Part shown: one piece after another, positions 6,247 through 24,721 of the stretch | How the letters are laid out: every line of letters begins with the position of its first letter | Position numbering within the stretch: the stretch's first letter is position 1 | From: a virus | Direction: 5' to 3' (one strand) | Length of the DNA stretch: 27,732 nucleotides | Virus record (IMG/VR): IMGVR_UViG_3300005264_000054 | Span: 1 to 27,732 of that record | Notes under the pieces: model-generated | Told to the model about the DNA's origin: nothing | Seen by the model: only the letters and a program-made list of their open reading frames with translations | Databases searched by the model: none | Translations under genes and position numbers: made by a program

Positions 6247-6328
6247 AATACACTTTCTCACAACACCCTCATTATTAAGAATATATGAGAAAAGTGTATT
6301 GGGTATATATAGATAGAAAAGTGTATTG
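6247..6328. repeat. Intergenic repeat cluster A (two direct copies, one inverted)
   Basis: On the minus strand the core CAATACACTTTTCTC starts at 6301 (perfect) and CAATACACTTTTCTA at 6328, exactly 27 bp apart. A third, inverted copy reads AATACACTTTCTCA on the plus strand at 6247-6260. The inverted copy can pair with the 6301 copy through 14 bp with one bulged T. The block lies between the chaperone extension, whose stop is at 6330-6332, and the tape measure start. It shares the downstream block TTAATAATGAG with cluster D at 24.7 kb. Confidence 0.85.
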
Positions 6329-6329
6329 G

Positions 6330-7069
6330 TTACTTCTTATTATCACTTCCGTTTATTTTAGGTAAAATCCATTCAAGCTCTGTTACTCTCATTGCCCAAT
6401 CATCTTCATTTAATGTATCAGGCTCTATATTAAAGTAATATCTTAACATTGCATTCTGTTTTCTTACAAACCCATCATCATTGTCAGATAACCTGTATTT
6501 ATCTAATTTTTTTTTATACTGTAATGTTTAACCTGTATTAACTTCTCAACGACTTTAATAACAGACATAAATAACTTATTGTTAGTTTTAATATCTTCGT
6601 CGCCGGAAATCCAACATACGTCCAACATATATTCAGTTGCACCAAATATATCACCTCTATTATACATGTCGACTATTTTAGTCAAATCACCTATTTCTAA
6701 ACTTTTTAATACGCAGTGTTTTCTATTCTTTATCAAACGGTCATTCTTTATTTCAACATGAAATTGTTTATCCTTTTCGTCAATACTTAAATCGTAAGGT
6801 TCTATTAAATTTAATACAGGTTCCATTGCTGATAAAAAGATAGTACTGTCTTCAAATACATCTCTATCGCCGCCTAAGAAAACATCTTTTAATATAATTT
6901 CATAGGCTCTCATAGGCTTATCTTCTAATAATTTACCTATTTTCTTAAGTGTTATACGTTCAATATCTGATATATAAAATTCAATATCTTCTATATTGAT
7001 TGTATAATAAGTAATATTTTTTTCTGCGAAGCTCTTTTTAAGGCTTTCGTATTTATTTTCTTTTGTCAT
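6330..7069 (-). CDS. Tail assembly chaperone, long form made by -1 frameshift (gpGT-like)
   Basis: Translation starts at 7069 and follows the short form to the A9 run at 6515-6507. Slipping back one base there re-reads position 6509 and enters a frame that stays open to a TAA at 6332-6330. This adds 59 residues after K187, for about 246 in total. The added part starts KLDKYRLSDNDDGF, includes EDDWAMRVTELEWILPKI and ends GSDNKK. It has no start codon of its own in a suitable place, looks like real protein, and sits directly before the tape measure gene. This is the layout of lambda gpG/gpGT and many other tail chaperone pairs, where the short part coats the tape measure and the extension recruits tube subunits. 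The existence of the extension is seen in the sequence; the frameshift itself is inferred. Confidence 0.8.
6503..7069 (-). CDS. Tail assembly chaperone, short form (gpG-like)
   Basis: This is the in-frame product, 188 residues, ending HYSIKKN at a TAG just after an A9 run. It lies immediately before the tape measure gene, as tail chaperones do. The protein is largely helical and seems to hold two related halves: residues 54-90 (RAYEIILKDVFLGGDRDVFE then FLSAMEPVLNLIE) and 143-179 (GATEYMLDVCWISGDEDIKT then FMSVIKVVEKLIQ) share A-x-E, a Leu, G-D-x-D and a later F-x-S plus LI at matching spacing. Chaperones of this kind bind the tape measure during tail assembly and are absent from the virion. 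The gene starts 21 nt after the second tube-like gene, so it is made from the same transcript. Confidence 0.75.
   Translation of the reverse strand: MTKENKYESLKKSFAEKNITYYTINIEDIEFYISDIERITLKKIGKLLEDKPMRAYEIILKDVFLGGDRDVFEDSTIFLSAMEPVLNLIEPYDLSIDEKDKQFHVEIKNDRLIKNRKHCVLKSLEIGDLTKIVDMYNRGDIFGATEYMLDVCWISGDEDIKTNNKLFMSVIKVVEKLIQVKHYSIKKN
6507..6515 (-). promoter_or_regulatory. -1 ribosomal slippery site (A9 run)
   Basis: Codons in the zero frame are ATA AAA AAA AAT TAG, so both A-AAA-AAA and A-AAA-AAT fit the X-XXY-YYZ heptamer for -1 slippage. The zero-frame stop follows directly (6505-6503), and the -1 frame stays open for 59 more codons. No obvious strong stem was seen just downstream. A slippery run plus an adjacent stop may be enough, as in other tail chaperone genes. 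Confidence 0.78.
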
Positions 7070-7090
7070 ATTGTTGTTTTTTATTGTTGT

Positions 7091-7630
7091 TTAAATTATT
7101 GTATCTATAACGCCTAGTTTTTGAAACTCAGGGCTATAAATATCAATTAAATTATTATTGTAACGAAATTTATTAAACGTTATTCTGTCTGTAGGTATTT
7201 TTAACACATGTGAAGCTACCATATTTATTGTAACGTATGTATTAGTTGCATTTTGTTTAATGTCTATGTTATTATCTATTACTTTACAATTGTAAATAAT
7301 ATATGTAAAAGGTATATTATCATCATTATCAATAAATGAAATCGTTACAGGGAAAGGTGGTAAATTAAAAAGACTCTCTTCGTTAGCCGCTGTTAATAGT
7401 ATTCTAAACTCTTCTACATCTACAGTTAATTGTACCGTTGTACTTATCTTGCCATATCCGTATCCAATTGGAAATACATTATCTCCATATATTGGTTTAA
7501 CATCTTGTTTTTCTGTAAATTTAACAGATGTTATACCGAAGAATAAAGATGTTCCTATTGAAACATTAACAGATGCCCAATCATACGATTTACCATTTAT
7601 TAACAGTGTTTTCTTTTCTATTTTATTCAT
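7091..7630 (-). CDS. Tail tube-like protein, second copy
   Basis: This 179-residue protein is a clear relative of the tube protein encoded just upstream. Both share LING-x-x-(Y/F)DWASV near the N-terminus, then FGI/FGV-x-x-(I/V)K, a P-I/V-x-x-G segment with GYGYGKIS matching WGRQNIS, an EF/EFHKL helix, a LP-x-F-x-V strand, and IIYNCK/IIRNCH near residue 115. This copy has a longer C-terminus of about 35 residues (ILKIPTDRITFNKF...). Tandem tube-like genes can encode the major tube plus a tube-end or initiator protein that contacts the hub or terminator. Which of the two is the major tube is not certain, although the upstream copy is closer to a compact tube protein. Its start overlaps the end of the 46-codon ORF by 8 nt. 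Confidence 0.65.
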   Translation of the reverse strand: MNKIEKKTLLINGKSYDWASVNVSIGTSLFFGITSVKFTEKQDVKPIYGDNVFPIGYGYGKISTTVQLTVDVEEFRILLTAANEESLFNLPPFPVTISFIDNDDNIPFTYIIYNCKVIDNNIDIKQNATNTYVTINMVASHVLKIPTDRITFNKFRYNNNLIDIYSPEFQKLGVIDTII

Positions 7631-7763
7631 ACTCTTTGTTTTTATGTTTACGCTTCCTAAATGGTTTATTCCGTTTTGACTTATGTCCCCCTGTTTTAAA
7701 CGATATAGGTAAGTGTTTTAGTCGTAACTTCTGTTTTATAATTTCTTCCTTAGTTATCTTCAT
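7623..7763 (-). CDS. Small highly basic protein, 46 residues
   Basis: An ATG at 7763 opens 46 codons ending at TAA 7625-7623, overlapping the start of the second tube-like gene by 8 nt. This is the kind of overlap used for translational coupling. The N-terminal part looks helical (MKITKEEIIKQKLRLKHL). From about residue 22 it is mostly Lys, Arg and His (KTGGHKSKRNKPFRKRKHKN), like a nucleic-acid-binding or ribosomal-type tail. The ATG follows an A/T-rich leader (ATCATATATT). It fills an otherwise empty gap between two tube-like genes. No family is recognised; it could bind RNA or DNA, or be a small assembly factor. Confidence 0.55.
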   Translation of the reverse strand: MKITKEEIIKQKLRLKHLPISFKTGGHKSKRNKPFRKRKHKNKEYE

Positions 7764-7777
7764 AATATATGATTTAA

Positions 7778-7809
7778 AATAAGTGTCTGTATTAAAACAA
7801 ACACTTATT
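7778..7809 (-). terminator. Hairpin after the tail tube gene
   Basis: AATAAGTGT (7778-7786) pairs perfectly with ACACTTATT (7801-7809), extended by TGT/ACA across one C-A mismatch, with a 6-nt loop. It starts 8 nt after the tube stop. In the minus strand only four Ts follow, so it is a weak terminator or an RNA 3'-end stabiliser. Confidence 0.5.
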
Positions 7810-7816
7810 GAAATTC

Positions 7817-8266
7817 TTATACATTAAAGTCAATGAACGAAGGATTTAACTCTGTATCAACTTTACTTTCCGGGTCATTTTGTGATAGACTTCTACCATT
7901 CTTAGTCAAGTGGCAGTTTCTAATTATATCAGTTCTAGTATTTCCGTCAGCTGTTTCATACAATACAATAACATCAAACATAGGAAGATCTTGTATAACA
8001 CCTTCTGGGGCGATGTCTTCTAATTTGTGAAACTCTGCGGCACTTAAAGTAAGTGATGCTGTTGCTGATATGTTTTGTCGTCCCCACGATACAGGTATTC
8101 TACCTTTGCCGAAGTTGTTTGTAACAGGCATATCGTTTTCATAGTCTATTTTAGACACACCGAAAATTACTTGGTCTGTTAGTCCAGGTAAATTGAAACT
8201 TAATGTAACAGATGCCCAATCAAATGCAGCACCGTTAATTAGTATTTTGCTTTTATCTATAGCCAT
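7817..8266 (-). CDS. Tail tube protein
   Basis: This is a 149-residue, beta-rich protein placed between the sheath region and the chaperone, where myoviruses keep the tube gene. It starts KSKILINGAAFDWASVTLSF and continues with VIFGVSKIDYE, IPVSWGRQNISATASLTLSA, a helix FHKLEDIAP, then DLPMFDVIVLYE and IIRNCHLT. This layout of two beta sheets with one helix fits the tube fold. A second copy lies just downstream at 7091-7630. It would polymerise into the inner tube that the sheath drives through the cell envelope. A hairpin follows its stop codon. The start has the typical A-rich leader (AAATAAAATTATG). Confidence 0.7.
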   Translation of the reverse strand: MAIDKSKILINGAAFDWASVTLSFNLPGLTDQVIFGVSKIDYENDMPVTNNFGKGRIPVSWGRQNISATASLTLSAAEFHKLEDIAPEGVIQDLPMFDVIVLYETADGNTRTDIIRNCHLTKNGRSLSQNDPESKVDTELNPSFIDFNV

Positions 8267-8288
8267 AATTTTATTTTATTTATTTTTA

Positions 8289-8672
8289 TTAAGAATGTAA
8301 TAAAGTAATATCTTTGTTAGCACTAGACTCTATTGTTAAATAGTTCTCTACTGCAAAGTCGTAAACTTTATGAGTTAATACTACATCATCTTGTTCAATA
8401 GTTACTACTGCTTTAGCAATACCTGTATCCCAAAGTTTTGTTTCATCACGTGATGTTATAATAGTAATTATATTATCGTTAACTGTTAATTCACCAAAGT
8501 CCACACCCATATCTATTAAAGAATATTGTGCGAATTTACTACCTTTGTTCTCTAACGTTACAATAACATTTGTAGTTGCAGATGTACCCAATGGCATTGC
8601 GACACCGTTTTCATCTAATACTGTTAATTGTAATGCTATTGTTTCTCCTTGTCTTATTGTGTATAGTGACAT
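8289..8672 (-). CDS. Small Ig-like beta-sandwich tail protein (unassigned)
   Basis: This is a 127-residue protein between the sheath and tube genes. It is made mostly of beta strands: YTIRQGETIALQLTVLDENG at the N-terminus resembles the first strands of immunoglobulin-like domains in phage baseplate upper proteins ('R-x-G-D/E-T ... h-x-h-x-h-x-D-x-x-G'). It continues NVIVTLENKG, then IITSRDETKLWDTGIAKAVV and VYDFAVENY. It could be a virion decoration, a tube/sheath accessory or a baseplate component. No exact family is recognised and the Ig-like call rests on strand pattern only. It is separated from the sheath gene by a hairpin at 8699-8734 and followed after 22 nt by the tube gene. Confidence 0.55.
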   Translation of the reverse strand: MSLYTIRQGETIALQLTVLDENGVAMPLGTSATTNVIVTLENKGSKFAQYSLIDMGVDFGELTVNDNIITIITSRDETKLWDTGIAKAVVTIEQDDVVLTHKVYDFAVENYLTIESSANKDITLLHS

Positions 8673-8698
8673 ATTTTCTTTTTTTAAAGTGGTTTATT

Positions 8699-8734
8699 AT
8701 AGCGTAGTGTGTAATTATATACACACTTTGCTAT
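8699..8734 (-). terminator. Hairpin after the sheath gene
   Basis: An inner stem GTGTGTA/TACACAC (7 bp, loop ATTATA) and an outer stem ATAGC/GCTAT are separated by a 3x3 internal loop. It starts about 20 nt after the sheath stop on the minus strand. No T-run follows, so partial termination or RNA processing is more likely than complete termination. Confidence 0.5.
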
Positions 8735-8753
8735 TTATTCAAAAATTAGCGAC

Positions 8754-9971
8754 TTAAAGAGACGCTGTAAATCCAATTGTTATTGAAATTTCTCTAGCTG
8801 TTCCGTAAGGCACCAACTTAATTTCAACTTCTACTTTAGAAGTTACTAATACATTTTGACTTGGGTCAATGTAAACACTATACCCTGAAATTTCAGCATT
8901 AGATGTCATTAAGTTTAGAACATTTCCTATTACATTAGACCATGTGATAATTGTTAATTTATCCAATTTTCCTGTCTTTGCGTCAATCTTAATAGGCGAG
9001 TTCAAATAAGGTAACATTGATGTTCTTACTTCTCTAACAGCTTTATCTCCAACTCTTACTTCGTTCATATAAGCATAGTCAGATGTAATTACATCGTTAG
9101 TGTGGTTATCATTAAAGTAAGTTCCTGTAATTCCTACATGTTTAACTCCAAAGATATATCCGTAGTTATTCAATTGATTTAAAGTACTCAATATTGTATT
9201 TTTAACTAATATCCCATTACCAAATGCTGGTTCATCTAATTCGCCGTCTCCGGAGATATTAAATTTTTCAACCCATGCTATACTTTCGTTTACATTTGCG
9301 TAAGATACTGCACCAGTAGTTGCACCAATCGCTGGAATAGAATATCCTGCTGTTGTAGCTAATGTGGCACCGTAGTTATTACCATCTTGTAAAATTACAG
9401 TAGAAACATTTTTACTAGGAGTTGATAGTGTTCTAAGGTTTGTTAATGATGTTAAATCAATTGATGATGAATCTGCACCATAAATAAAAGATACAGGTGT
9501 ATGCAATGTTGATAATGTTGTAGCAATTCCTTGTACTTTTTCTATTTCTGTATTTGTTAAAGTTGTTTCTCCTGCAACTACACCGATTTGACGAATTTCT
9601 CCGTTTGCGTAAGTTTGCATATCAGATAACTCGCTGTAAGTCAATGGAACTGGTGTACCTTCTAAATTAGTATTGTAGAATAAACCTACATACAATTTAG
9701 TATCTCCTGCGATTCTGAAAAACTCTTTTACTTGATACCATACTTCTGATGTTAAAGCATTATTAAAATCAATACCTGTTGCAATCTCAAACTCATCTAA
9801 CGATGTGTAACTTTTGATACGGTTATCGGCGTCAATGTCCGTAATACCTGCTGCATCAAAATCTGATTGTGCTTTTAAATCAGTATATATAGCCAATCCA
9901 GAAATAGCATCATAATTACTAACATCTCTAGCTAGCCCACCGTTACCCAGTGTTATATTTATATCGTTCAT
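8754..9971 (-). CDS. Contractile tail sheath protein (DUF2586-like)
   Basis: This 405-residue protein follows the major capsid gene and its terminator. The N-terminal domain has KSYTSLDEFEIATGIDF (about 53-70), then EVWYQVKEFFRIAGDTKLYVGLFYN, the usual sheath pattern in which a 'S-x-D-E-F' helix and a 'hhR-x-x-G-x-x-LYVG' strand appear early. The central part (GVVAGET..., STVILQDGNNYGATLATTAG, AIGATTGAVSYANVNESIAW) fits a sheath core. The C-terminal part (KIDAKTGKLDKLTIITWSNV, then IDPSQNVLVTSKVEVEIKL) has the strands that interlock neighbouring subunits and ends in a short arm (ISITIGFTASL). It would form the contractile outer tail. It shows that the virion is a myovirus. Confidence 0.8.
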   Translation of the reverse strand: MNDINITLGNGGLARDVSNYDAISGLAIYTDLKAQSDFDAAGITDIDADNRIKSYTSLDEFEIATGIDFNNALTSEVWYQVKEFFRIAGDTKLYVGLFYNTNLEGTPVPLTYSELSDMQTYANGEIRQIGVVAGETTLTNTEIEKVQGIATTLSTLHTPVSFIYGADSSSIDLTSLTNLRTLSTPSKNVSTVILQDGNNYGATLATTAGYSIPAIGATTGAVSYANVNESIAWVEKFNISGDGELDEPAFGNGILVKNTILSTLNQLNNYGYIFGVKHVGITGTYFNDNHTNDVITSDYAYMNEVRVGDKAVREVRTSMLPYLNSPIKIDAKTGKLDKLTIITWSNVIGNVLNLMTSNAEISGYSVYIDPSQNVLVTSKVEVEIKLVPYGTAREISITIGFTASL

Positions 9972-9999
9972 ATTTTCTGTTTTTGTTTTTGTTTATTTA

Positions 10000-10038
10000 A
10001 AAAATGGTGTGGCATAATAACTAAACCACACCATTTTT
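10000..10038 (-). terminator. Rho-independent terminator after the major capsid gene
   Basis: A perfect 13-bp inverted repeat, AAAAATGGTGTGG (10000-10012) and CCACACCATTTTT (10026-10038), has a 13-nt loop. On the minus strand it ends in a run of six Ts after a GC-rich core (GGTGTGG/CCACACC). It is the strongest terminator-like structure in the window and sits between capsid and sheath genes. No recognisable promoter follows, so some read-through to the sheath gene is needed. Confidence 0.8.
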
Positions 10039-10070
10039 AATGTTAAATTCTTCTTTAAACTGTGTTATGC

Positions 10071-10964
10071 TTACGCACCTTCGATGATGTTTACAACACC
10101 AACATCAGTAGTTTTAACGCTTTTAACAGCACCAGAACGTACTAAACTTGAAATAACTGAACCATAATATTCAGGTTTTTCGTTGTCTGCAAATACTTTT
10201 ACATTACCCATTGCGATTCTCACGAAATCAGGGTGCCAGATAAGTAAACCTAATTTGTCAGTTGCAGCTGCTGTTGCACCTACTGCTTTTTTAGCACCAC
10301 TACCATCATAAATAACAGATGGAGTTCTTACAAAAACATCAGCACCTAAAATAGTACCAATAGAACCTGTAGTTAAAATACCTGTCATTAATGTTTGACT
10401 TGATGTGAATTGTGTCATGTTCATTAAGTCTTGATACATATAACCATCAATTAACATTTTACGTCCTTCCATAGGTACGTTTTGAATATTTAATATACCC
10501 ATTGCTTTTACAATGTCTTCATACACTAATGTTTTACGTGTACCTGTTTGTGTAGATAAATAAGCTGCTCTGTTTGACCCTGTTGTTTCAACAACGTTAA
10601 CGTCAGTAGACCATTCATAAGCTGTGTGTGTACCAATTGCTTTATAAATAGATTTTCCCATTTGTGAAGTTACACTTGCTAATTTGTCATAAGATGCTTC
10701 TGTTTCTTCAATGTTTGTTATAACGATTGGGTCGGCAGAGTATTCATTAACAATGTATGTTAAATCAACATCATTTCTTTGACCAATTGTAGCTGGTAAA
10801 GTAGTTCTATTTTTTTCAGCTTCGTTTAAAGCACCTGCTTGAGGTACGTGTACTGAATGACCTTCAATAAACGCAGAATCATTAATTGCGTTTTTATAGA
10901 AAGCGTTATCTGGGAACAAAAGCTCTTGAACTTTATTGATCCACAATTCTTTTTGTATTGCCAT
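10071..10964 (-). CDS. Major capsid protein (HK97-type fold expected)
   Basis: This 297-residue protein lies just after the protease-scaffold gene, the standard place for the coat protein. It begins WINKVQELLFPDNAFYKNAI and continues with SVHVPQAGALNEAEKNRTTL, the N-terminal arm and early strands seen in small coat proteins of this type. A strand segment (DLTYIVNEYSADPIVI) leads to a long spine-like helix region (DKLASVTSQMGKSIYKAIG). Central parts include VYEDIVKAMGILNIQNVP and EGRKMLIDGYMYQDLMNM, typical of the axial domain. The C-terminal region (LLIWHPDFVRIAMGNVKVFA, then SVISSLVRSGAVKSVK) matches the final helix and strand of HK97-like coat proteins. No cleavable delta domain is seen at the N-terminus. 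It follows its own candidate promoter element and is followed by the strongest terminator. Confidence 0.82.
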   Translation of the reverse strand: MAIQKELWINKVQELLFPDNAFYKNAINDSAFIEGHSVHVPQAGALNEAEKNRTTLPATIGQRNDVDLTYIVNEYSADPIVITNIEETEASYDKLASVTSQMGKSIYKAIGTHTAYEWSTDVNVVETTGSNRAAYLSTQTGTRKTLVYEDIVKAMGILNIQNVPMEGRKMLIDGYMYQDLMNMTQFTSSQTLMTGILTTGSIGTILGADVFVRTPSVIYDGSGAKKAVGATAAATDKLGLLIWHPDFVRIAMGNVKVFADNEKPEYYGSVISSLVRSGAVKSVKTTDVGVVNIIEGA

Positions 10965-11040
10965 AATAATTTTTAATTTAAGTTTTTAGTTTTAATTTAA
11001 AATCAATTCTTAGGTAAAGTTGATAAAACTCTATCGTCCT

Positions 11041-11056
11041 TATATATAATAGTATT
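11041..11056 (-). promoter_or_regulatory. Candidate phage (late) promoter element upstream of capsid gene
   Basis: On the minus strand AATACTATTATATATA lies about 80 nt upstream of the capsid start, in the 120-nt gap after the protease gene. The same 16 bases occur only once more among the intergenic regions, at 15401-15416 upstream of the head operon. It lacks the TAnnTTTG host signature. A promoter read by a phage-modified polymerase is an inference. Confidence 0.4.
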
Positions 11057-11084
11057 TAGGATATTATTTTATACTAAATAAGAC

Positions 11085-12320: not shown

Positions 12321-12332
12321 AATTGTTTAATT

Positions 12333-12887
12333 TTAATTTATTTTAACTGTTATTTTTGTTTCTAAATCAATAGGTTCTTCCAATGTTGTGTATTTTTTCA
12401 ATGCACTAAAGTCCGAAACCATTGCTTTAAATGTAGTCTTAGTTATTTTATTAAGACCATCTATATCTACATAAGTCACTCCATCTCTATGCAACGAATG
12501 TATAAAATATTTATCTGTATCTTTATTAAATGTTGGTAATAGTTTACCATTTGTACCTTCTAATATATCAAATATCTTATCTGCAATGTCTAAACTTGCT
12601 AAAAAATCATCTGTCATTCCTTCTAAACTCGATAAATTATTAGGCACCTGTGTTATACTGTGTATAATTATATCAATATTATGACGTTGTGCTTTTTCTG
12701 CAAATTGTTCTATACTATTACTAGGTTTTATCTCTAATAAGATTGAAGGGTATACTAATACCGCCTTATCGTAAATATAAGGAGAATATATCCCAAACGA
12801 CTTTATATTTAATTTCTCGTTCACATCTCTATCAACATCACTGTCAATTATAAAGTATTTGATAAAATTATAAATGTATCTTAACAT
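12333..12887 (-). CDS. Tail terminator / neck protein, Mu gp37-like (tentative)
   Basis: This 184-residue protein has mixed helices and strands. A strand pair (KAVLVYPSILLEIKPSNSIE) leads into QFAEKAQRHNIDIIIHSITQ, then a helix (LSSLEGMTDDFLASLDIADK) and KIFDILEG. The C-terminal third has strands KYFIHSLHRDGVTYVDID, then KTTFKAMVSDFSA and ETKITVKIN. The pattern of one extended sheet with helices on one side, where a 'YP-x-h-x-h' strand comes early and the last strands are hydrophilic, is seen in tail terminator and neck proteins. Its place after the gp10/gpG-like gene agrees. It starts 6 nt after the preceding stop. The exact family is uncertain. Confidence 0.55.
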   Translation of the reverse strand: MLRYIYNFIKYFIIDSDVDRDVNEKLNIKSFGIYSPYIYDKAVLVYPSILLEIKPSNSIEQFAEKAQRHNIDIIIHSITQVPNNLSSLEGMTDDFLASLDIADKIFDILEGTNGKLLPTFNKDTDKYFIHSLHRDGVTYVDIDGLNKITKTTFKAMVSDFSALKKYTTLEEPIDLETKITVKIN

Positions 12888-12893
12888 AATTTG

Positions 12894-13250
12894 TTATTTT
12901 AAAAGTTTTGATAATATTGAACCCATTCGTTTTTGAATAATATTATCTATTTTTCGTTTTAGTTTAATTTCGCTGTCTTTTTCCAAACCTATAAACTTTC
13001 GCTGTTTTATAGTATCAGTACCTTCATTATGATATTTCGCATATTCTACAGCTGTTACATTAACTCCTTTCTTAGAACTACTAAATTTAATACTATTTTT
13101 CATTTTTCCGCTCTTTATTAACGAATTAGGACTTTTTTTCCATTTCTTCTTACCCCAACTCTTAGTTGAAAATGCTTCGCTTGTATCTTGTTCCATCTCT
13201 TTTTTAATTGTGGTAGATATTTCAGCCATTAGATTGTTTAACAAATTCAT
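12894..13250 (-). CDS. Head-tail connector, HK97 gp10 / phage virion morphogenesis-like
   Basis: This 118-residue basic protein has the phrase set of the gp10/Mu gpG-like head completion family. LIKSGKMKNSIKFSSSKKGV (about 44-63) matches 'L-x-x-SG-x-h-x-x-Sh', VEYAKYHNEGTDTI matches 'h-x-YA-x-x-h-x-x-G', and QRKFIGLEKDSEIKLKRKI matches 'x-R-x-F-h-x-h' followed by the last helix. These proteins join the portal complex to the tail. The N-terminal helix (LLNNLMAEISTTIKKEM) is followed by WGKKKWKKSP. It starts 2 nt after the zinc-finger gene stop and continues into the tail terminator-like gene. Assignment to this family is fairly secure. Confidence 0.72.
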   Translation of the reverse strand: MNLLNNLMAEISTTIKKEMEQDTSEAFSTKSWGKKKWKKSPNSLIKSGKMKNSIKFSSSKKGVNVTAVEYAKYHNEGTDTIKQRKFIGLEKDSEIKLKRKIDNIIQKRMGSILSKLLK

Positions 13251-13252
13251 TT

Positions 13253-13444
13253 TTACTTTTTAAGTTTTGTATTAATTATTACACCCTTTCTGTTGGGTTT
13301 ATTATTAACAGACTCTTTCATACATTTATCAGAACAAAACGTCTTATATAATATGCCGTTACTTCTTTGGCGTGTATACTCTTCCAATGTTACTTTAAAT
13401 ACTTTTCCGCAATTATCACATAATATTCTTACTTTTCTTACCAT
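13253..13444 (-). CDS. Small zinc-finger protein
   Basis: This 63-residue protein contains two Cys pairs in the arrangement of a treble-clef or zinc-ribbon finger. CDNC is at about residues 9-12, and FCSDKC about 25 residues later has Cys37 and Cys41. The intervening part (KVFKVTLEEYTRQRSNGILY) would form the beta hairpin and connecting helix. The tail is very basic (NKPNRKGVIINTKLKK). It lies between the tRNA and the gp10-like gene in the head operon, with a start preceded by an A-rich leader. Small fingers of this sort often bind DNA or RNA, or act in head completion or packaging. Its function here is unknown. Confidence 0.65.
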   Translation of the reverse strand: MVRKVRILCDNCGKVFKVTLEEYTRQRSNGILYKTFCSDKCMKESVNNKPNRKGVIINTKLKK

Positions 13445-13485
13445 TTTTAATTTATTATTTGTTTTAAATTAGTATTAGTGTTTAA

Positions 13486-13557
13486 AGCCGAATGAAGGAC
13501 TCGAACCATCATACTCTGTGTACAAAACAGAAATAATAACCATTATATTAATTCGGC
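13486..13557 (-). tRNA. tRNA-Thr (anticodon UGU)
   Basis: On the minus strand a full cloverleaf folds. The 7-bp acceptor GCCGAAT/ATTCGGC is perfect. The D arm is weak, with three A-T pairs (ATA/TAT) and GG in its loop. The anticodon stem TCTGT/ACAGA encloses the 7-nt loop TTTGTAC, giving anticodon TGT at the right place. A 4-nt variable region is followed by a T arm GATGG/CCTTC with the loop TTCGAGT and one T-T mismatch in the stem. G1-C72, C2-G71 and the G35-U36 anticodon bases match known threonine identity elements. The discriminator base is T and no CCA is encoded. It lies alone in a 236-bp gap in the head operon and would read ACA codons. Confidence 0.85.
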
Positions 13558-13593
13558 AGTTTTATTGTTAATTACACTTTACAATATTCTATG

Positions 13594-13679
13594 CAATACA
13601 CTTATCTCTTATTAAAAACATCAATACACTTTTCTTTTATTAACTTAATAGTCAACACTTTAGCCGGAAAAGTGTATTA
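13594..13679. repeat. Intergenic repeat cluster B (two direct copies, one inverted)
   Basis: Plus-strand copies begin at 13594 (CAATACACTTATCTC, then TTATTA) and 13622 (CAATACACTTTTCTT, then TTATTA), 28 bp apart. An inverted copy AAAAGTGTATTA lies at 13668-13679, next to the portal stop codon. A degenerate piece (CAACACTTTAG) sits at 13653. The cluster fills the gap between the portal gene and the tRNA. Confidence 0.85.
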
Positions 13680-13680
13680 T

Positions 13681-15247: not shown

Positions 15248-15295
15248 ATGATTTATTTTTAAAAGTTTTTATTTATTTTTTCTCAATGTTAAAGT

Positions 15296-15326
15296 AAAAC
15301 GGCAATGACGGTAACACTGCCGTTTT
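15296..15326. terminator. Hairpin in the head-operon leader
   Basis: AAAACGGCA (15296-15304) pairs with TGCCGTTTT (15318-15326), 9 bp and loop of 13 nt. Four Ts follow the stem in both directions. It lies about 50 nt upstream of the DUF1320 start and downstream of the candidate promoter at 15401, so it could act as a leader attenuator or a stabilising 5' structure, or end a transcript from the upstream operon. Confidence 0.55.
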
Positions 15327-15416: not shown

Positions 15417-15451
15417 CTCAAATAAATCTATCATCATATAAGAATATAAAT

Positions 15452-15517
15452 AAAAAAGTGTATCGTTATCAATACACTTTTCTCTTATTATAAACCCAAT
15501 ACAGTTATCTCTTATTA
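15452..15517. repeat. Intergenic repeat cluster C (two direct copies, one inverted)
   Basis: Direct plus-strand copies start at 15470 (CAATACACTTTTCTC then TTATTA) and 15497 (CAATACAGTTATCTC then TTATTA), exactly 27 bp apart. An inverted copy AAAAAAGTGTAT lies at 15452-15463, here before rather than after the pair, and can form a hairpin with the first copy that ends in T6 on the minus strand. The second direct copy overlaps the last codons of the RecB-like nuclease gene. Confidence 0.85.
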
Positions 15518-16242
15518 TTTGATACGTATTTGCGGCGTTCTTCTAATATCGCTTTGGTTTCTTTATCTGTATTAGGTATATCTGTATTGTAAAATATCTT
15601 AAAAGTCTCATCATCATTTAACTGAATTATTAACTTGTTATTTAACGGACAACTTTTTAACATACAATATATATTTGCTTGTATACTATACTTAACTAAC
15701 GGAGAGTTCTGTAAATTAATAGGCGAATACAGTTTATTATAAGTTTTATACATATCCTTAGTTGTTTTCCAATCGCCGATATATAACTGTTTAGTTTTTT
15801 TATGTTCTAATATTAAATCTATTGTACCAGCTAATAATAACTCTGTATCAAATACTTGTTCTTCTTGACCTATAATAATAAACTCTTTTTCTAACTCTTT
15901 TATAGCTGCAATAACAGCTTTCTCTGAACCATTAGACGGCGTAATACTTCTATCTAACATATATAATTCTGAGAAAAGATGTGTGGCTGTACCTAAAGTA
16001 CTGCGATATTCTCCATTTAACTTCCAATATTTACGAAGTAATATAGGGTCAGTTATACCTGTATTATCTCGCTTATTCTTTTTAGCTTTGGCGTTTGATG
16101 CAAATATCGCATTAAATGGTTGTGTATATTGACTTATTAGTTTAGTTACACTTGTTAATTCATGTCCGTCCACTGTATATCTGTGGGTTTTTGAATTAAA
16201 CTGTAATAAGCCTTTTTTTACTAAATCTGGGTCTATAAACAT
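15505..16242 (-). CDS. RecB/Cas4-like PD-(D/E)XK nuclease
   Basis: This 245-residue protein has the ordered motifs of RecB-type exonucleases. GTATHLFSELY (about 84-94) gives the 'G-x-x-x-H-x-x-x-E' helix with His88. LLLAGTIDLIL (136-145) gives the first catalytic Asp142. LYIGDWKTTK (153-162) gives Asp157-x-Lys159. KYSIQANIYC (184-193) gives the conserved Q-x-x-x-Y helix. These are the usual motifs I, II, III and QxxxY of the Cas4/AddB nuclease group. It probably degrades or processes DNA during phage replication, recombination or packaging. It is the third gene of the short operon that starts at the host-type promoter near 17.2 kb. It lacks the four Fe-S cysteines of true Cas4 proteins. Confidence 0.75.
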   Translation of the reverse strand: MFIDPDLVKKGLLQFNSKTHRYTVDGHELTSVTKLISQYTQPFNAIFASNAKAKKNKRDNTGITDPILLRKYWKLNGEYRSTLGTATHLFSELYMLDRSITPSNGSEKAVIAAIKELEKEFIIIGQEEQVFDTELLLAGTIDLILEHKKTKQLYIGDWKTTKDMYKTYNKLYSPINLQNSPLVKYSIQANIYCMLKSCPLNNKLIIQLNDDETFKIFYNTDIPNTDKETKAILEERRKYVSNNKR

Positions 16243-16263
16243 ATCTTGTTGTTTTATTTTGTT

Positions 16264-16641
16264 TTAATAAATAGTTAAATCTCGTTTGATTTTACTTTCC
16301 ATTATTTTTTCTAACTGTTTGTTGTCAGAATAATTGAATTTTCCACGTCTCTTATACTCGGCAATGATATATTGTTTAAATAACTGAGTTATAATAGCTG
16401 TAAGTTTATATTTTTCAAAATCGAAATTATCTATTTTCTCCCATATATCACTACATACATCGTTTGTGACATTATCCCTATCATATAGTGTTATATTATC
16501 AGTCACGCCCGATATTGTTTTTTTCGTTAAATATTCACGCATTAAAACATAAAGTTTGTTATAATACTCTATGTTTTTTGTTTTTTGATATTTAATTGCT
16601 AAATTCTGCAATTTGTTTGTTGTTGTTTGTGTGTCTACCAT
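16264..16641 (-). CDS. Sigma-70 region 2-like protein (phage sigma factor candidate)
   Basis: This 125-residue protein resembles an isolated sigma region 2. An N-terminal helix (LQNLAIKYQKTKNIEYYNKL) is followed by a second helix (YVLMREYLTKK). VTNDVCSDIWEKIDNFDFEK (58-77) then lines up with the core-binding 'D-h-x-Q-E-h-F-h-x-h-W-E-K-h-x-x-F-D' motif of ECF factors. ITQLFKQYIIAEYKRRGKF (84-102) lines up with the -10 recognising 'h-h-x-x-h-h-x-N-x-h-h-D-x-h-R-R-x' helix. Region 4, which reads -35 elements, is absent. T4 gp55, the late sigma factor, is likewise a reduced region-2 protein that ends in a similar basic helix. The likely role is to redirect host RNA polymerase to phage promoters. 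Its position in the host-promoter operon agrees. This is an inference from sequence pattern. Confidence 0.6.
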   Translation of the reverse strand: MVDTQTTTNKLQNLAIKYQKTKNIEYYNKLYVLMREYLTKKTISGVTDNITLYDRDNVTNDVCSDIWEKIDNFDFEKYKLTAIITQLFKQYIIAEYKRRGKFNYSDNKQLEKIMESKIKRDLTIY

Positions 16642-16647
16642 GTTGTT

Positions 16648-17166
16648 TTATTTTAAAATTGTTTTTAAGTAAGTATTTATTGATTTGTAAAAATCTTTTT
16701 TATGCTTTTTATATCTCAATGAATATTGATGTTTCTCTTTGACTAATTCTAGCATTCTTTTATTCTTTTCTTTTTTAATGTAGTTATAAAAAACTATATT
16801 GACTAACTCTTTAAAGGAGTAATAACTATTATGTACTACATTATAATACTGTACAAATTCCATGCCAGACTGTATATATGTGGCTAAATATAAATAAGCT
16901 GTCGTTTTGTCAGCTGGACTTTGTACTAAATTTACTACATTGTCTAATTCTGCCGGAATGTCACCTATTTTATCTTTAATAAGTTCTAATTCGGAGTATA
17001 CTTTATCATAAGTATTTATGTCAGGTTTTGTACTACCTGTCATTAAAGCTATACCTATTAATGTTTTTAAGTTTCTTCTTTCGATATAACTTCTTTTGTT
17101 CTTACTGGCGATATCGCTTGGTTTAACTATACCTTCAACGAATATCTTTGTTTTTTTGTCTGTCAT
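16648..17166 (-). CDS. Unknown helical protein, first gene of the sigma-like operon
   Basis: This 172-residue protein follows directly on the host-type promoter at 17.2 kb. The first 30 residues are charged (KTKIFVEGIVKPSDIASKN, then RSYIERRNLK). A hydrophobic helix (TLIGIALMTG) and helices such as TYDKVYSELELIKDKIGDIP and ELVNIVFYNYIKKEKNKRML follow. The tail is strongly basic (YSLRYKKHKKDFYKSINTYL). No catalytic motif, zinc site or transmembrane segment is evident. Basic C-terminus and position next to a sigma-like gene would suit a regulator or polymerase-binding accessory factor, but nothing in the sequence proves this. It lies 6 nt before the sigma-like gene. Confidence 0.5.
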   Translation of the reverse strand: MTDKKTKIFVEGIVKPSDIASKNKRSYIERRNLKTLIGIALMTGSTKPDINTYDKVYSELELIKDKIGDIPAELDNVVNLVQSPADKTTAYLYLATYIQSGMEFVQYYNVVHNSYYSFKELVNIVFYNYIKKEKNKRMLELVKEKHQYSLRYKKHKKDFYKSINTYLKTILK

Positions 17167-17200: not shown

Positions 17201-17232
17201 CAAATATACAAAAAATAATTGACAATACCAAA
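17201..17232 (-). promoter_or_regulatory. Bacteroidota-type promoter for the sigma-like operon
   Basis: On the minus strand TTTG (17232-17229) is separated by exactly 20 bp from TATATTTG (17208-17201), matching the -33 TTTG and -7 TAnnTTTG consensus of Bacteroidota housekeeping promoters. A start point about 6-7 nt further would give a leader of roughly 28 nt before the ATG at 17166. TTGTCAA lies inside the spacer, as in the promoter at 24.5 kb. Confidence 0.65.
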
Positions 17233-17254
17233 TATTTTGTATATTTATAGTTAT

Positions 17255-17995: not shown

Positions 17996-17996
17996 T

Positions 17997-19457: not shown

Positions 19458-19467
19458 ATTTTTTATT

Positions 19468-20928
19468 TTAAAAAATGTTTAATTGTCTCACACCGGTTAA
19501 TATTTCACCAGACCGTCTAATAAGTTTATTTATTGTATTTATAGCACTTTCTAGTGCATCTATGCCGTCATCATTCTTTGCTGATGGAAATGTAACATAT
19601 TCATAATAAAACTGTTTAAAATCAGGTTTATCTTTAATATTCTCGGCAAATGATATAAGCCCTTGTTCAAAGAATATAGCCATATTTTCGATACGAGCTA
19701 TTTTATTATCTTTCTTAGACTTATCCCACACAATAGGTAAAGGTATCCCACGCTTCTTATATACGTCGTTATACGTGTCTTTATGTAGGTCTTGTGCAAA
19801 GTTTGCTTCAATATAGATTCTATGGTTCTTATAGTCCATATCATATAAATAATTAAATACAACTGTCATTGTAGTCTTTCTTTCAAACATATCAATCACA
19901 TAATATTTACCATTTGAATATCCGACTGTTACAATAGCTTTAAAATCAGCATCTTTCTTAAACGATGGGTCTACATAACTAACAACATAGTCGAAATTAT
20001 GACCGCCTTTCCTATAAAACTCTAACCATTCTGTTTTAAATACTGAACCTTCAATGATAGGGTTATTCATATACTCTCGTTCAAACCTTATACTACCAAT
20101 CTTGCTCTTTATATTAAGTAAATCGTTAGGTGAGAACCTTTCTTTCCACGACACTTCTCCGTTATTATCAAATGCATTGACTTTTAGTACTTCCACTCCA
20201 TCTATTTCTTCCATAAGACGAGTTAAAACCATATCTATACTAAATCTATTACCTAATACTACAAATCTATACTTCTTTATACTCATTGCAGGGAATACAC
20301 TTTGCAACACCCAATTGGTTTGCTTATTTATTGTATTCTTATTTAACACATCTTTATCAGTGTCTATGTCATCTAATATAACCAAATCCGGACGATAATG
20401 TTTATATTTAAGTCCACGTGTACTCTGTCCTTTACCTACACAATAGAATGCTGTTTCATATCTTTCAACAATAAAGTTTCCTTTAGACCAATTTCCCAGC
20501 TTTACAAACTCGCCAAAGTCATTTATTAACTTTATATTAGTTTCTAATTCTGCCTGTATGTTTATAATTTGTTTAACTGCGAGGTCTTTTGATGCCGCAA
20601 CTAAAAGAACAAAATGAGTTTCTCCTTTTAACATTAGATAGATAGGTAAAAATAAGGAAAATATAGTCGTTTTTGCGTGGTTTCTTGCTATTTGTACTAC
20701 AGCTTCATACGTAGTATTGTTGCTTATTTTACGAACTAAATCTTTATGGAATTGAGCTAACGGTATTTGTTTACCGAACTCATCTTTAGTGTGATGTGAA
20801 AAGTATTTCTCAACAAAATCTTTAAAGTCCAGGTTTGTATATATCCGCTCTTGACTTATCATAGTTATTAACGCCTTATACAAGCTATCTCTCTCTTTAC
20901 TGTAATAGTTTTCTGTTTTATTCGACAT
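19468..20928 (-). CDS. terL: Terminase large subunit (ATPase-nuclease)
   Basis: This 486-residue protein is the DNA packaging motor. Residues from the ATG at 20928: a Walker A variant RNHAKTT (82-88), a Walker B LVILDD (182-187) with Asp186-Asp187, and a coupling region (VLGNRFS). The nuclease domain starts with SYVDPSF (Asp320), then YIEANF (Glu374) and DDGIDALE with Asp454 and Asp457 as the last metal ligands. It cleaves concatemeric DNA and pumps it through the portal. A TTG two codons upstream is possible, but ATG 20928 is preferred because its ATG overlaps the 85-residue gene's end by 11 nt (ATGTCGAATAA) in coupled fashion. Length is normal for the family. Confidence 0.9.
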   Translation of the reverse strand: MSNKTENYYSKERDSLYKALITMISQERIYTNLDFKDFVEKYFSHHTKDEFGKQIPLAQFHKDLVRKISNNTTYEAVVQIARNHAKTTIFSLFLPIYLMLKGETHFVLLVAASKDLAVKQIINIQAELETNIKLINDFGEFVKLGNWSKGNFIVERYETAFYCVGKGQSTRGLKYKHYRPDLVILDDIDTDKDVLNKNTINKQTNWVLQSVFPAMSIKKYRFVVLGNRFSIDMVLTRLMEEIDGVEVLKVNAFDNNGEVSWKERFSPNDLLNIKSKIGSIRFEREYMNNPIIEGSVFKTEWLEFYRKGGHNFDYVVSYVDPSFKKDADFKAIVTVGYSNGKYYVIDMFERKTTMTVVFNYLYDMDYKNHRIYIEANFAQDLHKDTYNDVYKKRGIPLPIVWDKSKKDNKIARIENMAIFFEQGLISFAENIKDKPDFKQFYYEYVTFPSAKNDDGIDALESAINTINKLIRRSGEILTGVRQLNIF

Positions 20929-21175
20929 TATCAAACTTGGTTTTAATAAACTCTAATAAATTGAGTTTTTGTTTTTTATCTAAATATTTAAGCTGTGTTA
21001 TATCACTAGATATTTCTGTGTATAGTTTGTTTAAAACCTCTTTGATTGGTAAAGAAAAACTAGCGTCCAAATTCTCAAGTACATATTTTACAGCGGACAG
21101 TTGGTCATCTTCAACTGCCGCCTTTAATTTCTTACGACTTGTATGTACTATATCGTTTATCCATTTGTTATCCAT
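20918..21175 (-). CDS. Possible terminase small subunit (85 residues)
   Basis: This is a short helical protein directly before, and overlapping by 11 nt, the large terminase gene. NKWINDIVHTSRKKLKAAVE is followed by DDQLSAVKYVLENL, which resembles the 'A-h-x-x-G-D-x-x-A-h-K-x-h-L-E' helix found in several small terminase subunits. A helix with SLPIKEVLNKLYTEI and a final YLDKKQKLNLLEFIKTKF follow. No clear helix-turn-helix is visible, so the DNA-binding half may be missing or diverged. Position and helix pattern support a TerS role (recognising packaging sites and stimulating TerL). The identification is inferred. Confidence 0.5.
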   Translation of the reverse strand: MDNKWINDIVHTSRKKLKAAVEDDQLSAVKYVLENLDASFSLPIKEVLNKLYTEISSDITQLKYLDKKQKLNLLEFIKTKFDNVE

Positions 21176-21177
21176 AA

Positions 21178-21645
21178 CTACGTTATTTTATTTTCGTTAA
21201 AGTCTATTACATCTGCGTATTTTTCAGCTGTATCACAAGGTATTAAAAAGCCTTTAGATGTTCCTGTCTCTATATCCATTTTATTACTATATTTAGTGTT
21301 TAATAACCGTCTCAATATCTTTTTAGAGAACATATACACTTTATTTTCGTCACCTATAATATAATATAACGCATTATCCTTAGCCATTATACCACTAGGT
21401 ACCCATGTTGTACTATATATATCACGTTTCTCTGCGGTTTCAATAAAAAGGTTTCCTGTACCTTTCATATTCATATCTAGCTTTATTTCATGTCTTGAAA
21501 AACTCTCCCCTTTATTGTATTGATACTTTTGCGACGAATACGCCATAATTATAATACCGACTCTCGCTAAGTTTGCGACTACATAGTCTTGAAATTGCAA
21601 ACCTTGTTCTAATTTATCTCTGTAATTTTCTGTAATTTTACTCAT
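21178..21645 (-). CDS. PD-(D/E)XK-like endonuclease (tentative)
   Basis: This 155-residue protein has a restriction-nuclease-like pattern. LQFQDYVVANLARVGIIIMA (16-35) resembles the first helix and strand of small PD-(D/E)XK nucleases. YQYNKGES is followed by HEIKLDMNM with Asp57. NLFIETAEKR (65-74) has Glu69 and Lys73 on the next strand, and a WVPSGIMAKDNALYYIIGDE segment (about 81-100) matches the 'W-x-x-S-G-h-x-x-x-x-x-D/N-h-h-h' strand found in phage nucleases of this type. It could be a Holliday-junction or repair-type endonuclease acting with the upstream primase-helicase. Catalytic residues are only tentatively matched. It starts 22 nt after the primase-helicase gene. Confidence 0.55.
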   Translation of the reverse strand: MSKITENYRDKLEQGLQFQDYVVANLARVGIIIMAYSSQKYQYNKGESFSRHEIKLDMNMKGTGNLFIETAEKRDIYSTTWVPSGIMAKDNALYYIIGDENKVYMFSKKILRRLLNTKYSNKMDIETGTSKGFLIPCDTAEKYADVIDFNENKIT

Positions 21646-21667
21646 GATTTGTTGTTTTTATTGTTTA

Positions 21668-24511
21668 TTAAAATGGTAATATATGTGATAAGGATAAAGA
21701 CTGTTTAGTTCTTAATAAATTGTTTTTATCTATATCTATACTTATGTTATTTTTATAAGCATTATTTGATAGTATGTTATATGTTCTTGTCTTATCTGCT
21801 GATTTATATCTAGTCTTTACTTCAAATATGTCTTTAAATATCTGTGTACTCTTTGTTTTATTTACATTTAATTTATAAGGTGTTTCTTTTCGCACAAATA
21901 AGTTAACAATACTGTTTATCTCATTTGCTGTATATGTCTTATTAACATCAAAATATTCTCTTATCTTTAAATAAGAAAAACTCATTATAATTCTTTTGTG
22001 TGTTTGATTGAATTTACGGTTATTATCGCCGATTTCTTTCAATATTTCAGCGGCATCTTCAACATTTACATCTATTTTATCCTGTATAGCTGTTATTTTA
22101 TTTGCAATACGTTGTGATTCGTATATATCGACACTTTCATGGTCGTCAAGTTCTCTTTTCCCTGTAATAACATCTATTGTTTTTTCAAATTTAATTTGTC
22201 TTTTATCTTTTAATTGTTTTGCCACATTATTTATTTCAGTTTTACTTGCTCTATCCATCTCTTCTCCATCTATAATAATGTTGTTCATTTTAAAGTTATA
22301 ACCTAATAGTTTTTGGACCAATAATGCAGGGTTATTCCAATAGAACTGAGTGTTTCTTGTATACACTTCATAGTTTATACCTATAATATTCAATGATAGT
22401 TTACCTTGTTTATTATAAACCAAGTTACCATATTTTTCAGAGTATTGTTCAATTGTACTTTTAATAAGAGTTCCTGAAAACTTATTATACACTTTCTCTT
22501 CTTCCATACTCATTGAATCGTCAACTAACCAATTTGATGACACATTGTTCATTAAATTAACACTGTCTATAATACGTTGCCCTTCTCGTTTTAACAACTC
22601 TCTGTACTTTTTAACTGAAAAACTATTATAGTCTAACGAAAATAACGCTGATTTGTTATTAATATAAATAAATGTAGTCTCTACTGCTTTGTTTTCAGGT
22701 CTTTCGCTCATTTGATATATAAGCTCTGGACTTATTTTACTTAACAAATGTAACGCTTTAAAATCTTCATAGAATCTAAACCCTTCACCTAATATACTTG
22801 TTGTTAATACAATATCCACACCTTTCTCTGTTTTACCATTCAATATCAACTCTGTATAGTCTTCAACTGTATCAGATGTTACTAATTGGGTTTTAAGACC
22901 TTTATTGTTAAGAACAATTTGTATCTTTTCTAACTCTTTCTTATTGTTTAAATATACTATTTGTTTACCATCTACATTTTCTATTTGTTTCAACACTGTA
23001 CTCATCTTATCTTTATAGAATATCATATTAAGCTCTTTACTTCTTCGTACTTTCTTTTGTACAGTCATTTTATATACACTGTTCATTAACACATCTGTTT
23101 CGATTGGAGATGCTGTTAGATAAACGTAATGTTTTGCAGTTACTTCTTTTATAAGTCTCATTGCTTTTTGTCTAAACGTATGGTCAGATGATACAGATAA
23201 GTTGTGTGCTTCATCTACTACAACAATAGCTTCTTTTAACCATTGTTCTCCGTTTGATTTTTTGAACTTCGATAGACCGTCGTAAGTAGATATAATTAAC
23301 TCTTTAGAAAAATCAGGTTGGGAACCACTTAATACCGCCGATACTTCAATCTTTTCTTTGCGTAATTTACCAACTAATTGTTTGACTAAATTACGAGTTG
23401 GTACCAATATAAGAGTTCTCTCTGTTATATGAGTAAAAAAGAATGTTTTACCAATGTTTGTATCTGCTTCAATTAAAAGACGTTTGTTACTTTTCATTTT
23501 ATCAGCAATAACAGTTTTTAGCTCTGTTAAATACTCATCTACTTTATAAATATCTTTATCGTTTTTAGTGCTTATGACACTTTTCAAAATAGTCTTTTTA
23601 TTCGATGTACTTCTTTTAAAGAAATAAGGATTTATATCAACAACTGCGGTTTTTAAATCTCTGGCAACTTTACCTTTATGTTCTTTTGTTTCATAAGGTT
23701 CTAAGGTCAAAATAATATCATTATCGCTCATTCCTGCCCCTTTTAATTGCATTAGAGCGGCATATAACCAATCATGAGTAGTTCCTGTCCCTTTACCTGT
23801 ATAACTGCTTAAAACACGATTTAAAGTGCGTTGTTGTTTAGACTTATCAAACTCTCCGCCATCAGTATTTATAATTAAACTTTTTCTATTTTTAAGCTCA
23901 TTGTCTCTATCTGATGATGATATTTCATTTATTAGAGTAGCTTTCTTTAACACATCTTCTAACGAATATACATCACCGTTATTATATTTTAATTTAGGGT
24001 CTCTTTTATTATCGTAAAATACAGGTGCGTACATTAATGTATTGCGTTTGAATGAGTTTTTATCAGCGTAAGGGAAAAGAGAAGATAATTCATTTTTCAT
24101 TATCTTTAATTCTTCACTAGTATAAGACCTATCTAGTGCTATGATAATTCTGAAACGGTCTCCGTCTTTAAGACCATTAGAATAAGAAAAATAACTTATA
24201 TATTCATATTCGGCGAATATTTTTTCTACTTCATTTCGGTTTATCTCGCCGTCAATGTCTAAGAATAAATAATTAAGTGTTCCAGTTTGTCCTGCCAACA
24301 TACCATATTTTAACGAAGTTGTCATTAAATAAGGAAGTTGATGTTTACTAGAATTTGAAAACTCTCTATTTGTTATACGCTTGTTTAAAATACTGTATAA
24401 CTGAGTTAAATTATCATATTTAACCGAGTTGTCTATACTTATAAGTTTTTTACCGTCATAACTATAAGTATTTTTTGAAATAATTAAATTTTGTAATTTT
24501 TGTTTTTCCAT
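21668..24511 (-). CDS. Primase-SF2 helicase fusion (replication initiator)
   Basis: Counting from ATG 24511 this is a 947-residue protein. Residues 75-165 look like an archaeo-eukaryotic-type primase core: YLFLDIDGE with Asp85 and Asp87, RFRIIIALDR (119-128) and NTLMYAPVFYD (157-167). Residues 240-295 fit a PriCT-like helical domain (THDWLYAALMQLKGAGMSDN, ILTLEPYE). An SF2 helicase follows, with a Walker A-like DTNIGKTFF (Lys355-Thr356), LILVPTRN (motif Ia), VVVDEAHNL (433-436 DEAH), YLTASPIE (III), IVYLNNKKE (IV), VLTTSILGEGFRF (V) and YQMSERPE (VI). It should unwind and prime phage DNA. A TTG start at 24571 is rejected because the promoter -7 element at 24548-24555 lies inside that stretch. 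Downstream residues from about 700 are unassigned. Confidence 0.8.
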   Translation of the reverse strand: MEKQKLQNLIISKNTYSYDGKKLISIDNSVKYDNLTQLYSILNKRITNREFSNSSKHQLPYLMTTSLKYGMLAGQTGTLNYLFLDIDGEINRNEVEKIFAEYEYISYFSYSNGLKDGDRFRIIIALDRSYTSEELKIMKNELSSLFPYADKNSFKRNTLMYAPVFYDNKRDPKLKYNNGDVYSLEDVLKKATLINEISSSDRDNELKNRKSLIINTDGGEFDKSKQQRTLNRVLSSYTGKGTGTTHDWLYAALMQLKGAGMSDNDIILTLEPYETKEHKGKVARDLKTAVVDINPYFFKRSTSNKKTILKSVISTKNDKDIYKVDEYLTELKTVIADKMKSNKRLLIEADTNIGKTFFFTHITERTLILVPTRNLVKQLVGKLRKEKIEVSAVLSGSQPDFSKELIISTYDGLSKFKKSNGEQWLKEAIVVVDEAHNLSVSSDHTFRQKAMRLIKEVTAKHYVYLTASPIETDVLMNSVYKMTVQKKVRRSKELNMIFYKDKMSTVLKQIENVDGKQIVYLNNKKELEKIQIVLNNKGLKTQLVTSDTVEDYTELILNGKTEKGVDIVLTTSILGEGFRFYEDFKALHLLSKISPELIYQMSERPENKAVETTFIYINNKSALFSLDYNSFSVKKYRELLKREGQRIIDSVNLMNNVSSNWLVDDSMSMEEEKVYNKFSGTLIKSTIEQYSEKYGNLVYNKQGKLSLNIIGINYEVYTRNTQFYWNNPALLVQKLLGYNFKMNNIIIDGEEMDRASKTEINNVAKQLKDKRQIKFEKTIDVITGKRELDDHESVDIYESQRIANKITAIQDKIDVNVEDAAEILKEIGDNNRKFNQTHKRIIMSFSYLKIREYFDVNKTYTANEINSIVNLFVRKETPYKLNVNKTKSTQIFKDIFEVKTRYKSADKTRTYNILSNNAYKNNISIDIDKNNLLRTKQSLSLSHILPF

Positions 24512-24547
24512 GTTGAAAAATGTTTTATTTGTTTGTATTAGATACTG

Positions 24548-24579
24548 CAAAGATAATAAAATTTTTGACAATATCTAAA
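24548..24579 (-). promoter_or_regulatory. Bacteroidota-type promoter for the primase-helicase
   Basis: On the minus strand TTTA (24579-24576) lies 20 bp from TATCTTTG (24555-24548), a TAnnTTTG -7 element. Transcription would start near 24541, about 30 nt before the ATG at 24511, which decides the start of the gene. TTGTCAA sits in the spacer, 9 bp from the -7 element (10 bp in the 17.2 kb promoter). Confidence 0.6.
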
Positions 24580-24660
24580 ACTTTTTAATTTTGTGTTTAT
24601 ATTCGATATTATATATACAAATATAGTGCCAAGAATTGTAATGTGGGAATATTTATCAAT

Positions 24661-24721
24661 CAATACACTTTTCTCTCTTTAATAAAGCAATACACTTTTC
24701 TCGCACTTTGTTAATAATGAG
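24661..24721. repeat. Intergenic repeat cluster D (two direct copies)
   Basis: Perfect copies of CAATACACTTTTCTC begin at 24661 and 24688 on the plus strand, exactly 27 bp apart. After the second copy an 8-bp spacer leads to TTAATAATGAG (24711-24721), also found after the second copy of cluster A. No clear inverted copy is present. The cluster lies between the peptidase and primase genes. Confidence 0.87.

Follow-up and report, generated by a model that had tools for sequence, protein, structure and literature searches.

Paired 15-bp repeats in four intergenic gaps of a Bacteroidota phage: putative tandem recognition sites or gene-end hairpins

What is the role of a short word that recurs, in direct pairs of nearly constant period, in four separate gaps between the genes of one phage? 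The question is raised by IMG/VR record IMGVR_UViG_3300005264_000054 (phage W), a 27.7-kb contig; the window analysed here is the whole of that stretch, 27,732 nucleotides. The minus strand carries every recognisable gene, including those for a Mu-type portal and gp36, terminase, the major capsid protein, tail sheath, tape measure, a primase-helicase-like protein and an NlpC/P60 protein. Genes are cut at both ends and the contig is therefore incomplete. The annotated phages closest to it, with protein identities of about 30%, belong to Bacteroidota; they include Winoviridae such as FPSV-S1, Peternella and pippi8-1, and phages of Porphyromonas and Bacteroides. W is treated here as a Winoviridae-like phage of Bacteroidota.

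The core word, GAGAAAAGTGTATTG (reverse complement CAATACACTTTTCTC), is 15 bp long, asymmetric and non-palindromic. Eight copies form four direct pairs, clusters A, B, C and D at 6.3, 13.6, 15.5 and 24.7 kb, with periods of 27, 28, 27 and 27 bp, respectively. The features are:

Cluster A pair: 6287 to 6328, plus strand, GAGAAAAGTGTATTG / TAGAAAAGTGTATTG, period 27, oriented against the genes; units 6287-6301 and 6314-6328 (CAATACACTTTTCTC matches on the minus strand).
Cluster B pair: 13594 to 13636, minus strand, period 28; units 13594-13608 and 13622-13636 (CAATACACTTTTCTC matches on the plus strand).
Cluster C pair: 15470 to 15511, minus strand, period 27; units 15470-15484 and 15497-15511 (CAATACACTTTTCTC matches on the plus strand).
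Cluster D pair: 24661 to 24702, minus strand, period 27, both units perfect, no hairpin; units 24661-24675 and 24688-24702 (CAATACACTTTTCTC matches on the plus strand).
Cluster A inverted arm: about 6247 to 6259, minus strand, with a 1-nt deletion, 26 bp from the pair.
Cluster B inverted arm: 13665-13679 (13666 to 13679 as a 14-mer), plus strand, 28 bp from the pair.
Cluster C inverted arm: 15451 to 15465, plus strand, 5 bp from the pair, on the opposite side relative to A, B and D.
Cluster D candidate inverted arm: 24730 to 24743, plus strand, 9/14 at a 27-bp offset; p 0.30 taken alone, not significant.
Promoter-like box TATATTTG: 24618 to 24625, minus strand, a match to TAnnTTTG (the Bacteroides -7 box); the D pair is 35 bp upstream of it, and the helicase start follows 54 bp downstream.

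These positions bear out a preliminary description of the window, which had reported the pairs, their spacing and inverted copies beside three of them. With up to three mismatches allowed, CAATACACTTTTCTC has 10 matches in the window; 100 dinucleotide shuffles averaged 1.8 and never exceeded 7. In the 2.3 kb of intergenic DNA the family amounts to nine copies in four gaps (maximum of 4 in 20 shuffles). Tandem pairs of any word 20-40 bp apart form nine clusters, compared to 0-4 in the nulls. The gaps that hold the repeats are the four largest of the contig (227-282 bp). A profile built from the core gives 20.7 bits or more to each of the eight pair copies, every one of them in a gap, and 12.3 bits to the best coding match. 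The one overlap with a gene end that had been described is at C, where unit 15497-15511 includes the stop codon of the nuclease gene 15505-16242. At A, unit 6314 abuts the stop (6330-6332) at which the tail chaperone's second frame ends. Start codons are about 65-260 bp from the units, which are away from ribosome sites; the nearest unit is 6287, relative to the start at 6220.

A, B and D are built alike: read along GAGAAAAGTGTATTG, the inverted arm comes first, unit 1 follows after 26-28 bp and unit 2 after a further 12-13 bp. The inverted arms match the core at 12/14 positions in B, 11/14 in C, 9/14 in D and only 10/14 ungapped in A because of the deletion there. Pair copies retain 13-15 of 15 bases, and the spacers between them vary. 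The variant letters ATAACTGTAT occur twice, in the direct unit at 15497 and in the putative inverted arm of D. The flanks of A and D are also alike (18/30, p 0.0002), which suggests that a longer piece was copied, and part of the core conservation may therefore reflect recent ancestry.

Is the repeat a conserved part of this phage family? Absence is stated here for relatives at roughly 70% identity or below. The closest relative compared, L071, has a tail sheath 73% identical to that of W and about 70-74% DNA identity on either side of the gene joint at cluster A. Its 9.2 kb contain no copy of the repeat with three or fewer mismatches, and at joint A it carries an ordinary terminator hairpin (GTCCCA...TGGGACTTTTT) instead; in L073 the same joint is just a short bare spacer. 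At joint B the portal gene of L072 and of L073 continues straight into the next gene, so the repeats of W, a tRNA-Thr and a gene for a 63-aa protein are extra DNA. The proposal that the repeats are conserved module joints for recombination therefore fails at both joints compared, by a refuting condition that had been stated with the proposal itself: relatives are without the repeats there. Nor are A and B seams between modules of different origin, because the two sides of each match one and the same relative with similar identity. The tRNA-Thr (TGT) is at 13486-13557, inserted with the 63-aa gene between the portal and the next head gene, and relatives have neither; weak hits suggest that the 63-aa protein is possibly a zinc-finger, treble-clef-like protein. 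The tail assembly chaperone of W has a probable programmed frameshift (6503-6515): nine consecutive A on the coding strand shortly precede the stop of the 188-aa gene, and a second open frame ends at 6330-6332; the A run and second frame are also conserved in L071 and L073.

The CAATACANTTNTCT pair pattern identified no other viral contig in IMG/VR holding the true family; its two matches lie inside a coding gene of glycosyltransferase-rich contigs and were set aside as chance. The inverted form of the pattern and a wider-spacing form had no matches in IMG/VR, and a single 19-mer had two, neither with a second good copy. The pair was not found in 295 Bacteroidales genomes, and blastn against annotated phages gave nothing above chance-level matches. 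Because related phages are without the repeats at the joints compared, we consider them a probable novelty of W, a control element or RNA hairpin that spread recently, and not a conserved part of the phage family.

The same absences, from joints A and B of relatives and from other viral contigs, would be expected of a small dispersed repeat, functionless now, that was copied within W (REP/MITE-like or by recombination) and is tolerated between genes only. Such an origin would account for the flank sequence that A and D have in common, and the different repeats of relatives are what fast turnover predicts. It accounts poorly for a steady 27-28 bp period across differing spacers with near-perfect cores; moreover, target duplication was not seen at A, intergenic DNA is scarce in W, and neutral copies would be expected to decay quickly. 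We consider this explanation unlikely.

Three clusters face one way and one the other relative to genes that are all on the minus strand, as had been noted correctly, and this mixed orientation had been taken as an argument against a role in RNA. That argument does not hold because a unit and its inverted copy make a hairpin in either orientation of the pair. On the mRNA strand, clusters A, B and C fold better (z -3.8, -2.9 and -3.9, respectively) than on the antisense strand (-1.4, -2.0 and -2.3). In A, the 6287 unit and the inverted arm form a hairpin of about 24 bp on the sense strand, and in B the 13622 unit pairs with the inverted arm in a sense-strand hairpin. In C, unit 15470 and the inverted arm form a 14-bp stem with a 4-nt loop and a U-rich tail, which is terminator-like on the minus strand; as read from the letters, two of the three changes in this arm preserve pairing as G-U on the mRNA strand. 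Cluster D has no hairpin (z +0.3) despite its two perfect units. The idea of partial terminators thus survives for C, which alone has a stem-loop and adjacent U-tract on the coding strand, but not for A and B, whose stems are without the U-tract, or for stemless D. Joint alignment of the four clusters gave no common RNA structure, and Rfam returned the tRNA alone in the window and nothing in the loci of four relatives.

The block 15505-17166, which ends at cluster C, is missing from the gene order of six larger relatives, and nothing related to its proteins occurs in the loci compared. A Bacteroides-type promoter, TTTG-N20-TATATTTG, is present at 17201-17232, upstream of 16648-17166 and of this phage-specific block. 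With its own promoter at the front and the terminator-like hairpin of cluster C at the end, the block is apparently a self-contained moron. The C gap holds a second, GC-richer hairpin at 15295-15325 (AAAACGGCAGTG...CATTGCCGTTTT, z -4.0), just upstream of the gp36 gene.

These folds raise the possibility, a real one if doubtful, that the clusters are gene-end RNA hairpins: post-stop stems at which the mRNA would be ended, slowed, cut (RNase III-like) or protected. One stem would have spread by copying to several gene ends, and the second direct copy would have arisen incidentally when an arm was duplicated, or would offer that arm another partner to pair with. Besides the stronger sense folding of A to C and the complete terminator form of C, it is favoured by the hairpin that L071 has at joint A and by the stop-proximal hairpins found in most gaps of W, L071, L072 and L073, whatever their sequence. 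The other gene-end hairpins of W, however, are made without the repeat sequence, and the lack of a U-tract directly after the stems of A and B, the lack of a stem in D and the failure to find a structure common to the four clusters are all contrary to it. So is the lower conservation of the paired arms compared to the pair copies.

A second phage of the group bears on the same possibility. IMGVR_UViG_3300033512_000117 (G6; loci L023, L058 and L059), with a terminase 47% identical to that of W, likewise has a private intergenic repeat family, TTCCCCTGTAATAAA, but one unrelated in sequence to that of W and arranged in inverted, not direct, pairs (10 copies in 5 gaps). Long hairpins form from the four short pairs and are mostly the stronger on the sense side, with z of -7.7, -6.5, -7.3 and -3.1 on the mRNA strand and -5.4, -4.5, -4.0 and -3.3 on the antisense strand, all relative to simple first-order Markov resamplings (60 draws each). 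In other contigs the G6 motif gave single matches, or second copies that were distant or apparently in-gene. The remaining large relatives have no comparable multi-gap repeat family. Other features were seen in the group. At 12376-12614, L058 has a 239-nt intergenic stretch, upstream of a candidate terminase small subunit, that forms one long rod on the mRNA strand (z about -7) and has no Rfam match. A 29-bp unit (GGTCTTAAAGTTAAA...) is repeated head-to-tail at 11162-11367 of L067 (G001 22662-22867), in an array that runs off the contig end, and a 66-77 bp repeat is present in three copies in one gap of the relative G007 (L060 3320-3560).

The tandem protein site is slightly favoured over copied gene-end hairpins. 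In this reading, which we hold tentatively and with somewhat less than even confidence, the pairs are putative tandem recognition sites for one sequence-specific protein at transcription-unit borders, similar to stoperators. The protein would recognise two same-strand copies of the asymmetric 15-bp word, set a fixed step of 27-28 bp apart, in either orientation relative to the genes, with a weaker inverted third site usually about 27 bp away. Once bound, it would alter transcription across or into the next unit, as a stoperator-like block or a local operator, and it would most likely be encoded by W itself. We infer all three of these: protein binding, phage encoding and the transcriptional effect. 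The gaps would be transcription-unit borders, judging from their size, the hairpins and the promoter-like box at D. Both explanations may apply together at A to C, where the unit and inverted arm probably add a second layer as a gene-end RNA hairpin.

Several observations argue for a protein site. The pair copies are near-invariant while their spacers vary, the period is steady, coding copies fall below the pair copies in score, and the inverted arm is at much the same distance from the pair in A, B and D (26, 28 and 27 bp). The pairing arms hold just 9-12 of 14 positions, suggesting that the pair sequence is constrained beyond base pairing. Since D has two perfect units with no hairpin and pairs are better kept than arms, the pair itself appears to be read, which favours sequence-specific recognition. 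The recurrence of ATAACTGTAT is as expected if those positions were tolerated variants in a putative binding site. On the other side, 27 bp is about 2.6 helical turns, a non-integer, and copies are found in both orientations; the better folding of A to C on the mRNA strand is not needed by a pure DNA site, and the likeness of the A and D flanks means that conservation may partly be recent ancestry.

A regulator gene was not identified. The W-only proteins (16264-16641, 16648-17166, 13253-13444 and 21178-21645) have no assignable DNA-binding family, and Pfam, PHROGs and NCBIfam scans of candidate proteins gave no repressor; the contig, again, appears incomplete. The sigma-like protein proposed earlier found no support in HMM libraries or in a low-confidence fold: the model predicted for 16264-16641 had a pLDDT of 60 and no PDB match at E below 1. 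The fold predicted for 16648-17166 was poor (pLDDT 41). No Bacteroides -7 box or promoter was at a constant offset from the pairs, and sigma-70-type promoters were at shuffle level.

Origin iterons, with D beside the primase-helicase gene as the origin, had also been proposed. Direct repeats do adjoin a replication gene there and AT-rich DNA is near, but there are four equivalent sites of two units each, three of them adjoining structural genes, in place of one multi-iteron locus at the replication gene, and the cumulative GC skew shows a steady fall across the window and does not switch at D. The proposal gained no positive support and we regard it as very improbable.

Among known systems the nearest kinds would be the stoperators (PMC6550527) and the 17-bp repeats of Cluster O mycobacteriophages (PMC4351075), and we claim membership in neither. 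Cluster A mycobacteriophages carry about 30 stoperators, each a single 13-bp site and most of them oriented with transcription, at which one phage protein, a known repressor, blocks elongation (PMC6550527, PMC9283540). Like the W repeats, they are short asymmetric words dispersed over one phage genome, their letters differ between relatives and many are not at promoters; in place of single sites W has four tandem pairs, with three clusters facing one way and one the other, and no repressor was found in the candidate-protein scans. The Cluster O repeat is palindromic and has 34 copies, of which about a third are in genes; the positions are mostly similar in every member (PMC4351075). It resembles the W family in being phage-private, present in many copies between genes, unexplained in function and absent from the usual hosts and other phages, whereas the W unit is non-palindromic, paired and missing at joints A and B in relatives. 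The SAS/ESAS of Cluster K are also short intergenic repeats, some having imperfect inverted pairs with a variable spacer, but SAS are placed 3-7 bp away from start codons and are similar to ribosome sites (PMC3203893); the nearest W unit is about 65 bp from a start. Intergenic heptamer repeats of Bacteroidetes, Beggiatoaceae and Cyanobacteria are direct and between genes, and the distant relatives L083, L028 and L143 have 7-bp arrays resembling those known from Bacteroidetes, but these are head-to-tail runs of 7 bp, unlike 15-bp words with a 12-13 bp spacer (PMC4679880). A CRISPR-repeat mimic (Racr), which would show a match to a CRISPR repeat, was considered as well (PMC10651486).

It is conceivable, though rather unlikely, that each phage of this group evolves an intergenic word of its own, which serves at several of its transcription-unit borders and gives way entirely to another word in relatives. 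Such a word would be read by a fast-changing private regulator, or would act as an RNA switch in which one arm pairs with either of two identical partners. To our knowledge, the regulation of Bacteroidota phages is barely known. A border-marking repeat with a different word in a related phage would offer a handle on regulators or RNA-processing sites, and it also tests the speed at which phage control codes turn over. If it is merely a dispersed repeat, it would show the copying of gene-end hairpins within one phage.
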